From NCBI GenBank assembly GCA_951800645.1, contig CATOIK010000008.1, forward strand, positions 1 to 64,000: 64,000 bases of DNA. Reading direction: 5' to 3'. The position numbers were made by a program, and so were the translations under genes. Shown here piece by piece: positions 10,202-42,267 of this stretch. The notes under the pieces are model-generated. The model did no database searches. It was not told where the DNA came from and saw nothing but the letters and a program-made list of their open reading frames with translations. The stretch is from an uncultured Eubacteriales bacterium. GTDB lineage: Bacteria > Bacillota > Clostridia > Lachnospirales > Lachnospiraceae. Numbering within the stretch: the first letter of the stretch is position 1; each line of letters opens with the position of its first letter.

Positions 10202-11129
10202 AAATCTTCATATCGTCAGGAACCGCTGCCGTAAAGGTAAGCGGTTCTTTTGTGATTGGGTGGGAAAAAGCCAGCTTCCAGGAGTGAAGACTTTGCCGGT
10301 TGATCAGGCTGTAATCCGGGTTGTAGAGAAAATCTCCCAGCAGAGGATACCCCAGGTACTGAAAATGAACCCGAATCTGGTGGGTACGGCCAGTCTCCAG
10401 CTTCAGCCTTACCAGGGAGATGTTCAAATCCTTCTGAAATCCCAGAATCTGGTAGTGGGTAACCGCGTCTTCCCCGTCTGTAAAATTCACTTCCCGTTTG
10501 ATCGTGGAGTCTTTTGTCCGGGCGATGGGAGCGGAGATCATACCGGATTCTGAATCAGAACAGAAAAGCCCCGGAATATCCATGTCAGCCAAGCGCCTTA
10601 AATCTCCGGATACTGCCGCCAGGTAGGTGCGGTAAATCTGCCCTCTGCTTACCATGCGGGATAAAATGGAAGCGCTCAGGGCATGTTTTGCCAGAATCAA
10701 AAGCCCTGTGGTGTCCTTATCCAGCCGGTTGATTACACGGAAGGTAAAGGGTTCCCCTTTCTGGTCAAAATACCAGGCCATGCCGTCAGCCAGAGAGTTG
10801 CCGTGATTTCCCTGAGAAGGGTGAATCGGCACCCCTGAGGCTTTGTTCACTACCATTAAATCCTCATCCTGATAGACAATTTGAAGCTTCATGGGAGTGG
10901 GAGTAACTGCGCTTGAGGGAGTTTCCGGCGGAAGGGTAACGGTAAGGGTATCTTTCGGCGAAACCGATGCAGTGACGGTTACTGCTTTTCCGTTTAACAG
11001 CAGTCCATCCGGTATCTGTTTCACATCGATGATAAGCCTGCGGGAGTAGCCCTTGGATTTTAAAAGCTCCTGGACCGAAAGGGTTTCTCCAGGGGCAGTC
11101 CGGTAGGTAAACTGGCGTTGTCTGTTCAT
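10167..11129 (-). CDS. RluA-family pseudouridine synthase
   Basis: This 320-residue enzyme isomerises uridine to pseudouridine in RNA. Catalytic Asp137 lies in RLDKDTTG and the C-terminal TGRTHQIRVH motif is intact. The N-terminal 70 residues are S4-like. ATG at 11129 follows AGAAGGATGG. It overlaps the stop of the upstream polymerase gene as ATGA, so the two are translationally coupled. The 3' end overlaps the convergent rsmF-like gene by 35 bp; the C-terminal residues are encoded there. Which RNA position is modified cannot be told. Confidence 0.9.
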   Translation of the reverse strand: MNRQRQFTYRTAPGETLSVQELLKSKGYSRRLIIDVKQIPDGLLLNGKAVTVTASVSPKDTLTVTLPPETPSSAVTPTPMKLQIVYQDEDLMVVNKASGVPIHPSQGNHGNSLADGMAWYFDQKGEPFTFRVINRLDKDTTGLLILAKHALSASILSRMVSRGQIYRTYLAAVSGDLRRLADMDIPGLFCSDSESGMISAPIARTKDSTIKREVNFTDGEDAVTHYQILGFQKDLNISLVRLKLETGRTHQIRVHFQYLGYPLLGDFLYNPDYSLINRQSLHSWKLAFSHPITKEPLTFTAAVPDDMKIFTDEVLLDSDF

Positions 11130-12382
11130 GATCCATCCTTCTGCTTCCAATGTTTTTTCTTGCTGACTGCATGATCCACCACCGTATTATCCTGTAAAAA
11201 GCTGGCCCGTTTCACACTGTCAATACCGTACTTGCCCCGGATAGAATCCACCGCTTTTTCCAGGGCTTTCATTTTCCGGCTCTGCTCCGTCTCAAACAGG
11301 CTCATCTGTTCGTAGGAATCCTCCTGAATCCGGGCAGCCCGCAGCCCAATCAGCCGCACCGGCGTCAAATCCCAGAATTCCTTTAACAGCCTGCAGGCAT
11401 TCTGGTACAGCACGGAAGTGGAATCTGTGGGAACCGCCAGAGTGGTCTGGTGGGAGAGGGAGTTAAACTGCCAGTCCTTCAGTTCCACACATACGCTGTT
11501 GCACCGAACCTGATGCTGCCGCAGTCTTGCCCCCACTGTTTCGCTTAAGGCCAGAAGTACCTGACAGGCAGTTTCGTAATCATTTATATCTCTGGAAAGG
11601 GTGATGCTGTTGCCGTAGCCCTTGTTTAAGGGCTCCCGCTCTGTCACCGGGGAGTCGTCAATGCCGCAGGCATACTGGTGAATCAGGGCGCCGTATTTAT
11701 TGCCCAGATGAGCCTTTAAAATCTGTTCATCGCAGGCAGCCACATCTCCAATAGTGTGAAGACCGATCCGTTCTAATTTTCCGGCGGCGGCTCCGCCTAC
11801 AAAAAACAGTTCCCGCACCGGCATGGGCCACATTTTCGTGGGGATTTCATCGAAAAAAAGGGTGTGGGTCTTATCTGGCTTTTCAAAGTCTGACGCCATT
11901 TTAGCCAGCAGCTTATTTGGGGCGATGCCTACATTGACTGTAAAGTCCAGCTCTGTCCGTATGCGGCTGCGGATCTGATCTGCCACCTGGGCGGGAGAGC
12001 CGAATAAGTGAATGGTTTCCGTCATATCCAGAAAGGCTTCATCAATGCTGAACTTTTCAATGTCCGGGGTGTATTCCTCCAGCAGACGGATCAGCTTCTG
12101 GGAGCACTCCAGATAAAAGTCAAAGCGGGAAGGGACGATGGTTAAGTCCGGACATTTCTTCAATGCGGAAACAATGGTCTCGGCGGTGGAGATGCCGAAC
12201 CTTTTGGCAGGAACTGACTTGGCCAGCACAATGCCGTGGCGGGAGGATGTATCGCCTCCTACAATGGCCGGAATAGTCCGAAGATCCACTGCCTCCGGAT
12301 CCTGCTTCAGCCGATACACCGATTCCCAGCTTAAGAATGCAGAGTTTACGTCAATGTGAAAAATCAGCCGCTCCCGAACCAT
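11126..12382 (-). CDS. dinB: Y-family DNA polymerase (Pol IV / DinB-type)
   Basis: This 418-residue translesion polymerase has the catalytic carboxylates in HIDVNSAF (Asp11) and SIDEAFLD (about 110-117). A helix-hairpin-helix and little-finger region follow, and near the C terminus a beta-clamp binding motif QMSLF. It copies damaged templates at low fidelity. The start at 12382 has GGAGG upstream on the minus strand. It heads a two-gene unit with the RluA-like gene. No LexA box was evident in the short spacer upstream. Confidence 0.9.
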   Translation of the reverse strand: MVRERLIFHIDVNSAFLSWESVYRLKQDPEAVDLRTIPAIVGGDTSSRHGIVLAKSVPAKRFGISTAETIVSALKKCPDLTIVPSRFDFYLECSQKLIRLLEEYTPDIEKFSIDEAFLDMTETIHLFGSPAQVADQIRSRIRTELDFTVNVGIAPNKLLAKMASDFEKPDKTHTLFFDEIPTKMWPMPVRELFFVGGAAAGKLERIGLHTIGDVAACDEQILKAHLGNKYGALIHQYACGIDDSPVTEREPLNKGYGNSITLSRDINDYETACQVLLALSETVGARLRQHQVRCNSVCVELKDWQFNSLSHQTTLAVPTDSTSVLYQNACRLLKEFWDLTPVRLIGLRAARIQEDSYEQMSLFETEQSRKMKALEKAVDSIRGKYGIDSVKRASFLQDNTVVDHAVSKKKHWKQKDGS

Positions 12383-12460
12383 GTACCATTCCTCCTTTTC
12401 CTTTGTATGATTCCTTTATCATACCAGAATATTTACAGAAAAGCCAGAATAGTATGCTAC
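12383..12460. other. Spacer between divergent dinB and the cloverleaf repeats
   Basis: These 78 bases between the Y-family polymerase gene and the repeat block hold only the dinB ribosome binding site and AT-rich sequence. Together with the repeats, the gene-free stretch runs from 12383 to 12812. Confidence 0.5.
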
Positions 12461-12775
12461 AGTTCAGGACGGCGGATGAAACGGCCAAAAGTCATGCGTT
12501 AAGCTTGCATATAAGCAGGTCTTTTGGCCGTTTCATACATCGGGTGGATGCCCGATGCATCTTGCCCGGAATAACAGGGCAAGATGAGTTCCGTCCTGAA
12601 CTTGGGGCAGCGGATGAAACGGCCAAAAGTCATGCGTTAAGCTTGCATATAAGCAGGTCTTTTGGCCGTTTCATACATCGGGTGAACGCCCGATGCATCT
12701 TGCCCGGAATAACAGGGCAAGATGAGTTCCGTCCTGAACTTGGGGCAGCGGATGAAACGGTCGAAAAGTTCCATT
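12461..12775. repeat. Tandem 138-bp repeat with cloverleaf fold (2 copies plus a fragment)
   Basis: Copy 1 occupies 12472-12609 and copy 2 12610-12747; they differ mainly in one loop (TGGATG versus TGAACG). A third partial copy starts at 12748 and decays after about 20 bp. Each unit folds as three adjacent perfect hairpins: 16 bp (12476-12491 with 12521-12536), 7 bp (12538-12544 with 12551-12557) and 10 bp (12558-12567 with 12577-12586). Around copy 1 a 12-bp outer stem (AGTTCAGGACGG 12461-12472 with 12591-12602) closes a four-way junction. It lies just upstream of the D,D-carboxypeptidase gene. An open frame runs through it but only because of the repeat. Confidence 0.85.
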
Positions 12776-12812
12776 CGGAACAGCCATATCAGAATTTAGG
12801 GGGATGGACAAC

Positions 12813-14078
12813 ATGGAAAAGAAGCACTGTATTTACGGATTGATGGCAGGCATTACCCTGGGTTTTGCAGTTTGGGGAAGTGCAGATGCTGCTCCGGCGA
12901 AAATATCTCAAACAGAAGCGGTTCAGACAGAAACAGACCATGCCAAAACCGCCCAGGAATCTTTAAAGCTTCACTCTGCCTCCGCCGTTTTAATCGACGC
13001 AGATTCTGGCCGTCTTCTTTATGGGAAAGAGGAAGATGAATTCCGCCCCATGGCCAGCACCACCAAGATCATGACGCTTATTCTGGCTCTGGAAAACGGC
13101 TCTTTAAGCGATGTCTGCACCGTTTCCTCCAAAGCTGCTTCCCAGCCTGCTGTTCATTTGGGAGCGCCCAAGGGGACGGAGTTTTATCTGAAGGATCTTC
13201 TCTATTCTCTTATGCTGGAATCTCATAATGATGTGGCAGTGGTGATTGCGGAGCATATCGGCGGCTCTGTGGAAGGCTTTGCTGCCATGATGAATCAGAA
13301 GGCCAGAGATATTGGCTGTCAGGACACCTGGTTTATTACCCCCAATGGACTGGACGCCCAGGAGACATTGCCTGACGGAACGGAAAAAATCCATGGTACT
13401 ACGGCGGCAGATTTGGCCCGCATTCTTCGATACTGTATTCAGCAGTCTCCAAAGCAGGAGGAGTTTCTTCAGATTACCCGGATTCCCAGCTATACTTTCA
13501 CCGATGTCTCCGGAAAGCGGTCCTACTACTGCGCAAACCACAACGCCCTTTTAACCATGATGGACGGAGCCTTAACCGGAAAGACCGGTTTTACGGGAGA
13601 CGCCGGCTATTCTTATGTGGGGGCGTTAAAAGATGATGACCGAACCTTTATCATCGCCCTTTTAGGCTGCGGCTGGCCGCCTCACAAGACCTATAAATGG
13701 GCTGATGCCAGAATCCTGTTTCAGTATGGGACGGATCGATATGCTTACCGGGATGTGTTTGAACCGGTGTCTTTGCCGGAGCTTCCGGTAGAAGACGCTG
13801 TCAGCAAGGAGCGGATTCCTGTTTCTGACCGGCTGGCAGGAGAGCAGCAGTTGTTATTATTACTCAGTGAGGAGGACCGGATCCAGTATCAGCTAAGCCT
13901 TCCGGAAAAGCTTGATGCTCCGGTTAAAAAGGGAGATGTAGTAGGGGTAAGGAGCTGTCAGTTAAATGGAGAGACTGTGGCTGTCTGGCCTCTTTATGCA
14001 GAGGAAAATGCAGAGCGGTGGAACTTTTTTTATTGCCTGGAATGTGTTTTGCAAAGATTTGTTGCGGTTCAGAACTAA
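12813..14078 (+). CDS. D-alanyl-D-alanine carboxypeptidase (peptidase S11, DacF-like)
   Basis: Penicillin-binding carboxypeptidase of 421 residues that trims the terminal D-Ala from peptidoglycan stem peptides outside the membrane. A signal peptide covers about residues 1-28 (ending near SADAA). Active-site motifs are SxxK (Ser82-Lys85 in ASTTKIM), SHN and KTG (near residue 255). After the catalytic domain comes a C-terminal beta-rich domain. The AGGGGG site is 9 bases from ATG 12813 but directly touches the earlier ATG at 12804, so 12813 is preferred. Its last codons form one arm of hairpin element A. Confidence 0.9.
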   Translation: MEKKHCIYGLMAGITLGFAVWGSADAAPAKISQTEAVQTETDHAKTAQESLKLHSASAVLIDADSGRLLYGKEEDEFRPMASTTKIMTLILALENGSLSDVCTVSSKAASQPAVHLGAPKGTEFYLKDLLYSLMLESHNDVAVVIAEHIGGSVEGFAAMMNQKARDIGCQDTWFITPNGLDAQETLPDGTEKIHGTTAADLARILRYCIQQSPKQEEFLQITRIPSYTFTDVSGKRSYYCANHNALLTMMDGALTGKTGFTGDAGYSYVGALKDDDRTFIIALLGCGWPPHKTYKWADARILFQYGTDRYAYRDVFEPVSLPELPVEDAVSKERIPVSDRLAGEQQLLLLLSEEDRIQYQLSLPEKLDAPVKKGDVVGVRSCQLNGETVAVWPLYAEENAERWNFFYCLECVLQRFVAVQN

Positions 14079-32456: not shown

Positions 32457-32527
32457 AGGGGAATAGTTCAATGGTAGAGCAGCGGTCTCCAAAACCGTAG
32501 ATGGGGGTTCGAGCCCCTCTTCCCCTG
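32457..32527 (+). tRNA. tRNA-Trp (anticodon CCA)
   Basis: The 71-base sequence folds as a cloverleaf. The acceptor AGGGGAA pairs with TTCCCCT, the D arm is GTTC...GAGC and the anticodon stem GCGGT/ACCGT has loop CTCCAAA (anticodon CCA). The T arm is GGGGT/GCCCC-like. The discriminator base is G. The 3' CCA is not encoded. Confidence 0.95.

Positions 32528-42194: not shown

Positions 42195-42267
<73 letters not shown>

Follow-up and report, generated by a model that had tools for sequence, protein, structure and literature searches.

Structured MITEs in untranslated regions are already known, with BOX, RUP and bcr as described cases (excerpts of PMC2864571, PMC3446304, PMC6542083, PMC10969869 and PMC3049150). 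The BOX, RUP and SPRITE elements are small repeats held to be MITEs, with inverted ends that pair in the fold, and are at times co-transcribed, extending the transcript at its 5′ or 3′ end; the excerpted text of the same source reports no fixed distance to a −10 box for them (PMC3049150). The bcr repeats of the Bacillus cereus group, including bcr1, are MITE-like and reach many copies per genome, and about half of them are found in transcripts, often in UTRs (excerpts of PMC3446304 and PMC6542083). The Clostridiales-1 RNA (RF01699) is typed in Rfam as ‘Gene; sRNA’, and was listed in 2010 as ‘RNA? y, cis-reg n, switch n, Clostridiales, human gut’ in a paper whose excerpted text contains no description of its mobility (PMC2864571). 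Here we describe a repeat located in the window (the whole 64,000-nt stretch of DNA analysed), which is probably an IS66-mobilised, Clostridiales-1-like cloverleaf MITE, some copies of which appear to have become structured mRNA 5′ leaders. A search of the open-licence PMC literature gave no description of the repeat, of its IS66-like ends, or of Clostridiales-1 mobility.

The window contains a 138-bp unit repeated directly (12467-12604 and 12605-12742) with 134/138 identical positions (97%), followed by a 24-nt fragment, in agreement with the two near-identical copies and fragment of the original prediction. This degree of likeness implies that the local duplication is recent. The plus-strand order is outer arm, C (the long hairpin), B, A, outer arm. 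Hairpins C, B and A are unbroken in both copies, so that the three hairpins proposed for each copy stand, with the middle one (B) consisting of 7 Watson-Crick pairs and one G-T pair. The four-way junction proposed around the first copy is likewise recovered by RNA folding, and its 12-bp outer stem (12461-12472/12591-12602) is limited to copy 1 because copy 2 has lost its own 5′ arm. The plus strand of 12455-12610 folds as RNA at −86.8 kcal/mol versus −46.0 (sd 3.9) for 200 shuffles (z −10.6), none of which equals it (0/200), and the opposite strand folded with DNA parameters gives a z of −10.8. The idea that changes between copies fall in a loop is half right: two of the four differences (12547/12685 and 12549/12687) do lie in the middle hairpin loop, whereas the other two (12469/12607 and 12471/12609) lie in the 5′ part of the unit, which in copy 1 is the 5′ arm of the outer stem. 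The family consensus for the C-side terminal inverted repeat is GTAACAGTTCAGGACGGC, and the window copy has one good end and one decayed end. A 168-aa reading frame (12337-12843) that spans the repeats and overlaps both dinB and dacA looks spurious. Tandem copies recur in the family (L040, L224, L226, L230, L156, L041, L110, L395 and L398) at a spacing of ∼129–160 bp where measured, and the window doublet is one case of this habit. Coordinates are collected in Table 1.

Table 1. Features of the window, with strand and basis or remark; R1 and R2 are the models described in the text.
Feature	Position	Strand	Basis or remark
dinB-like gene, divergent neighbour	11126..12382	−	marks orthologous site
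CCAGAATAGTAT	12444..12455	+	counterpart of CCAGAATAGGAT in relatives; by eye, orthologous dinB-dacA gaps
C-side terminal inverted repeat and outer stem 5′ arm, copy 1	12456..12472	+	GCTACAGTTCAGGACGG
Hairpin C, copy 1, 16-bp stem	12476..12536	+	repeat search, fold, R2 match
Hairpin C cap GCGTTAAGCTTGCATATAAGC	12496-12516	+	CTTG loop 12504-12507
Hairpin B, copy 1	12538..12557	+	RNA fold
Hairpin A, copy 1, 10-bp stem	12558..12586	+	inverted-repeat search, RNA fold
A-side terminal inverted repeat and outer stem 3′ arm, copy 1, in part decayed	12591..12602	+	
Copy 2, hairpins C/B/A kept, without outer stem 5′ arm	12605..12742	+	R1 match 12590-12750
Partial third copy	12743-12766	+	24 nt, 83%
dacA-like carboxypeptidase gene	12804..14078	+	downstream of repeats
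tRNA gene	32457-32527	+	Rfam gathering level
tRNA gene	42195-42267	−	Rfam gathering level

The repeat belongs to a dispersed family. In its own genome (G000, 2.42 Mb, assembly 83% complete) it occurs at 14 places by BLAST and at 24 by the model R1 (E ≤ 0.001), which was built on the minus strand, so that R1 matches are read in the opposite sense. Searching the related genomes, as had been proposed, gave R1 matches in 20/24 genomes of the genus, with at least 121 in G012, 75 in G007, 36 in G001 and 0 in G004, G008, G015 and G016. R1 matches are further present in 44/250 genomes of a Lachnospiraceae sample (E ≤ 1e-4) and in 9/246 genomes of an order sample (E ≤ 1e-6), one of these nine belonging to another family and one being the own genome. 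An exact core pattern retrieves at least 117 stretches in named genomes, the matches listed including Enterocloster, Lachnoclostridium, Hungatella and others, and also matches one viral contig record. An intact copy in an IMG/VR record (L304:1825-1976) has 7/8 flanking bases duplicated, and the genes around it look chromosomal; one intact copy compared with plasmid and phage records gave no match.

Evidence for mobility comes from two sets of copies. The first comprises 87 copies aligned to R1; in 30 of them neither end departs from GTAACTGTTCAGGACGGC by more than 6 mismatches, and 18 of these 30 are flanked by a target duplication of 7-8/8 bases, whereas shuffling of the partners predicts 0.9. 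The second, of 180 copies, includes 42 with 7-8/8 duplications; both terminal inverted repeats lie within 5 mismatches of the consensus in 78/180, and 39 of those 78 carry a duplication. The young copies of G012 and G007 form clonal subfamilies, and several end pairs of 38–83 bp are internally deleted copies with duplications. Four loci in G012, G007 and G001 (L340, L341, L343 and L347) consist of end pairs of 38–45 bp with a 7-8/8 duplication and little or nothing between them. The copies of the own genome are old, since the window locus retains 4/8 bases, which is not recognisable as a target duplication, and 0/17 own rows reach 7-8/8. Flanking duplications had been named as the check for a mobile element, and together with a dinB-dacA site that is empty in relatives they bear out the MITE-like option. 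The repeat is thus a non-autonomous MITE of ∼150 bp without a transposase of its own, and its dispersal, 8-bp target duplications and empty site in relatives, all read from sequence, establish its mobility.

Elements of the IS66 family have ends that begin with GTAA and produce 8-bp duplications. The ends of the repeat, which by subfamily read GTAACTGTTCAGGACGGC, GTAACAGTTCAGACGG or GTTACTGTTCACGGGG, conform to a family end motif GTAAC[A/T]GTTCAG. One IS66-type element, L387 of G022 (1812 bp, with a 494-aa reading frame matching PF03050), carries GTAACAGTTCAGCCTT at both ends (16/16 alike) and is flanked by the duplication AATTTTTT (8/8); its 8-bp duplication, like that of L392, agrees with the family hallmark. 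As G022 holds both L387 (GTAACAGTTCAG...) and repeat copies with GTAACAGTTCAGACGG, the ends are alike within one genome. L062 ends in GTAACTGTTCAGCACCC and GTAACTATTCAGAACCC and L349 in GTATCTGTTCAG and GTAACTGTTCAG, with GTAACTGTTCAG common to both at one end and a changed base at the other. Between the repeat and the IS66-type elements the first 12 bases agree and the following bases differ. Reading of 20 IS66 stretches gave perfect ends with an 8-bp duplication in three (L381, L387 and L392), and the ends of the repeat in L387 only; the two further IS66 elements, L381 and L392, end differently. The first 16 stretches read had yielded one other with perfect ends and an 8-bp duplication, L056, which is the same element as L392. 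PF03050 matches occur in 11/24 genomes of the genus, with 0 in the own genome G000 (83% complete) and none in G001 (80% complete), though the repeat is abundant in the latter. An autonomous element with exactly the ends of the repeat was not found by pattern search or in 20 stretches read for that purpose, and apparent autonomous elements of 1.7 kb proved to be host genes between two unrelated copies. Taken together, these observations support, but do not prove, that an IS66-type transposase moves the repeat in trans; the differing ends of L381 and L392 and the lack of a PF03050 match in G001 leave cause and effect a matter of inference. For G000, where none of the 17 own rows retains a 7-8/8 duplication, past IS66 activity is possible.

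The insertion site in the window can be compared across relatives. The product of the gene downstream resembles D-Ala-D-Ala carboxypeptidases in seven NCBIfam matches, all below curated cut-offs, which fits the peptidoglycan carboxypeptidase first proposed, and the divergent neighbour is presumably dinB. dacA is present in 24/24 genomes of the genus and dinB adjoins it in 10/23 others; R1 matches near dacA occur in the own genome only (0/23 congeners at E ≤ 1). The dinB-dacA gap measures 91–207 bp in nine measured relatives versus 421 bp in the window genome. The window element starts directly 3′ of CCAGAATAGTAT, which is likely, from sequence comparison, to be the end of the dacA promoter region; by eye, its counterpart CCAGAATAGGAT is clearest in L306, L307, L310 and L317. 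A promoter scan of 12300-12900 gave no consensus sigma-70 site, there is no good −35 box near CCAGAATAGTAT, and a scan of the same interval gave no terminator after the repeats. Several relatives retain a repeated CAGAATA motif within the gap (CAGAATATTTACAG...CCAGAATAG, window 12430-12455), which may serve dinB or dacA as an operator or promoter. At gathering level, Rfam detects only the two tRNA genes in the whole window and nothing at the repeats; seven low matches in the repeat region, mostly to animal microRNA hairpin models, fall below threshold and were discarded.

A different relation to promoters separates young from old copies. We define as young the copies with a 7-8/8 duplication and the C-side end kept (n=42), as old those with the C-side end kept and no 7-8/8 duplication (n=103), and as a −10 box any hexamer with at most one mismatch from TATAAT that ends 3–8 nt before the element end. 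Among old rows with enough flank, a −10 box is present at the C-side end in 37/100 and at the A-side end in 6/100, compared with 6/40 and 7/40, respectively, in young rows (Fisher p 0.006). The class in which both ends are certain is cleaner, since decayed A-side ends are hard to place, and here the old copies give 12 versus 2 of 38 (C-side versus A-side). A −10 plus a −35 box is present in 34 versus 2 of 180 (4 versus 2 in young copies; 9 versus 0 and 17 versus 0 in other classes). When any distance up to 100 nt is allowed the contrast is smaller, namely 19 versus 8 of 57 in class D, 13 versus 4 of 38, and 9 versus 7 of 39 in young rows. Decayed A-side ends exceed decayed C-side ends (49 versus 1), an excess due in part to ascertainment, as a core near the C side was used to find the copies. 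The distance of the −10 box peaks at 5 nt, which would make the first base of the element, or one close to it, the transcription start. In sequence terms, young copies are without a promoter link and old copies are enriched at one spacing behind −10 boxes.

The genes that follow were assigned by simply taking the longest frame. Of 34 promoter-class copies, 22 are followed by a gene on the same strand, 5 by one on the opposite strand and 7 by no called gene; in the own genome, same-strand and opposite-strand genes follow in 14 and 1 of 17 rows, respectively (13 versus 1 loci). Corresponding values are 49 and 35 of 103 for all old rows (19 without a call) and 17 and 17 of 39 for copies with both ends kept and no duplication, and the strand bias is therefore clear only in the promoter class and the own genome. 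The next start codon follows within ∼60 nt of several promoter-class copies. The downstream genes are diverse and presumably include lipoprotein, cbiD, GMP-synthase-like, glucanotransferase-like and other genes. cbiD is present in 24/24 genomes of the genus, with R1 matches nearby in four. In G000, G001 and G018 the element starts a few bases behind the TATAAT of a conserved promoter (TTGYCAA...TATAAT), and by eye at least seven further genomes (G005, G008, G010, G013, G021, G022 and G023) have the same promoter without an element. In G007 the element lies upstream of the cbiD promoter in reverse orientation, and in L264 (Ca. Lachnoclostridium stercoravium) it again lies behind TATAAT at cbiD. 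Throughout the genus, cbiD is preceded by a short reading frame as well as by a conserved promoter (L352, L356, L360-L362, L364 and L370).

The shape of the element is retained while its sequence is replaced. In alignment A2 (106 R1 matches, fitted to the structure and including a few wrong-strand and partial ones), 91.2% of cells are paired and 58/61 model pairs have changed on both sides, so that covarying stems at many loci, which the original prediction had put forward as its check, are indeed present. Covariation in A2 is 0.498 versus 0.155 for shuffled and at most 0.083 for slid alignments. For stem C, examined without structure fitting in 228 distinct copies, 3887/4241 pairs are Watson-Crick, and ungapped pairing is 80% versus 44% with shuffled partners. 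Mean stem C pairing is 0.86–0.87 in old copies without duplication and 0.90–0.91 in young ones. In three species the element stands 1–3 nt behind the same gene (86.8–91.2% protein identity; L036, L075 and L232), and the hairpins are wholly different in sequence, yet still paired, a difference that may have arisen by compensation step by step, by exchange for another copy, or by insertion on more than one occasion. Stem C of L208 and that of L235, at one orthologous site, show a compensated exchange of a G-C for an A-T pair. A wobble test for the RNA strand leans weakly towards the transcript (133 versus 92 mismatches; 72 versus 54 copies). The alignments thus demonstrate at the sequence level that the family keeps pairing while stem sequences are replaced.

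We infer transcription, the mobilising enzyme and the leader effect from these patterns, and they can be combined as follows. The outer stem, being formed by the terminal inverted repeats, would serve the transposase, and insertion would occur in both orientations into AT-rich DNA. Where a copy has inserted immediately downstream of a −10 box, hairpin C foremost, it would be retained and turn into a structured 5′ leader, with transcription starting at or near its first base. Such a stably folded 5′ terminus could change mRNA lifetime or translation, a change that host selection would use. Should transcription of dacA begin upstream of the repeats, both tandem copies in the window would form part of its 5′ leader, and stable 5′ hairpins in such a leader would most probably alter mRNA lifetime or translation.

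An alternative to this MITE-to-leader reading is that the hairpins matter at the DNA level only, with a transposase or replication requiring a folded single strand or cruciform, the RNA unselected, and near-promoter copies staying by chance or as harmless insertions. The young clonal bursts of G012 and G007, in which the stems are already well paired, indicate that pairing is kept among mobile copies, and wobble mismatches display no clear strand preference, both of which fit such a role. However, stem C in old copies without duplication is paired nearly as in young ones, and the one-sided −10 box of old copies is not predicted by a role in DNA alone; we consider this reading unlikely, at about one chance in a handful or slightly better. 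Somewhat less probable still is a free-standing small RNA gene, as Clostridiales-1 is typed in Rfam, that spread with a mobile element. The Rfam type and the ‘cis-reg n’ entry in the excerpted 2010 paper (PMC2864571) favour it, as does a TATAAT-like box shortly upstream of three copies in G254, but the lack of a terminator after the repeats in 12300-12900 argues against it, and the nearby start codons of promoter-class copies suit a leader.

The location of the repeat within a probable dacA leader could also suggest a cis-regulator that senses a ligand or a protein and serves dacA or cell-wall genes in particular; yet R1 matches stand at dacA in 1/24 genomes of the genus, and the diversity of downstream genes argues against a gene-specific regulator, which makes this reading very improbable. 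The recent local duplication, visible in the 97% likeness of the two copies, might be all there is, namely the doubling in tandem of an ordinary palindrome that belongs to no family, but copies in 20/24 genomes of the genus, with stems that differ yet pair, refute this, and we give it practically no credence. The mobilised cloverleaf with leader copies remains our preferred reading.

The relation to Clostridiales-1 RNA was approached through intermediate loci. The loci that R1 matches in other genera likewise form cloverleafs; their cap is the same, but their stems differ. When 34 distinct loci, including some from the own genus, were scanned with Rfam, RF01699 scored above its gathering score of 48 in two (L126, 141.2 bits; L123, 76.3 bits), both of which coincide with R1 matches, and below it in L111 (36.0) and L396 (24.7); the match strand is as expected. 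The window copies themselves give no RF01699 match, either at the gathering threshold or at E ≤ 10. A hairpin C model, R2, was built from 15 non-congeneric sequences and has 26 pairs, of which 23 are changed on both sides; it matches copy 1 at 12470-12542 (57.3 bits) and copy 2 at 12608-12680 (58.4 bits). The E-values are 8.8e-10 and 1.6e-9 for the window copies, 5.5e-9 for L123 and 0.0013 for L126, with no match at E ≤ 1 in 23 dacA control loci; on 47 further loci, 45 match at E <1e-4, L012 at 0.0019, and L027 is missing. The cap likeness is partly selected, and thus partly circular, because the 15 sequences were found by R1 and chosen by the cap pattern, whereas the Rfam matches are free of that selection. 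Other ends also occur: G169 copies carry CCGAATTATTCAC, one of them (L409) with a 7-base duplication, and G103 and G187 carry GTTACTATTCAC and GTAATAGTTCAGC. A lysine riboswitch (RF00168, 106.6 bits) lies near a cloverleaf copy in another family of the order (L395:2078-2254). The original view, which recognised no known family in the repeat, stands for direct matches of the window copies to RF01699 and gives way at the level of remote kinship; these sequence matches support, but do not prove, that the cloverleaf and Clostridiales-1 RNA are distantly related.

On this reading, mobile DNA is offered as the origin of an orphan Rfam class of gut bacteria, an unexplained candidate of 2010. The copies would form a natural series from young mobile insertions to old ones fixed at transcription starts, which makes testable how selfish repeats become gene leaders. 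Complete stem replacement with kept pairing at orthologous sites provides a case for study.

Among other described systems, the integron attC site has R′/R″ core boxes at the base of its fold and an integrase nearby, whereas the GTTAAGC of the repeat stands in the cap and not at the fold base. IS66 elements share with the repeat GTAA-type ends and 8-bp duplications, but the repeat is without a transposase and its ends differ beyond the first 12 bases. BOX, RUP and SPRITE of Streptococcus pneumoniae differ in host and sequence, and the bcr repeats are tied to a TTTAT motif, without 8-bp duplications and IS66-like ends (excerpts of PMC3446304 and PMC6542083). Compared with RF01699, the stems and hairpins B and A are of other sequence, and target duplications are known for the family of the window, not from RF01699 loci; shared are, in this order, the outer stem, the long C hairpin with its CUUG loop and an unpaired A on the 3′ side, B and A, all on the same strand. 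We put forward only tentatively, at somewhat less than even chances, that RF01699 and the repeat form one mobile cloverleaf superfamily, in which the shape and the cap GCGU-NNNN-CUUG-N′N′N′N′-UAAGC would be selected, the long stems would be replaced entirely, also within a single orthologous site, and +1 copies would repeatedly have been taken as mRNA 5′ ends in gut Lachnospiraceae.
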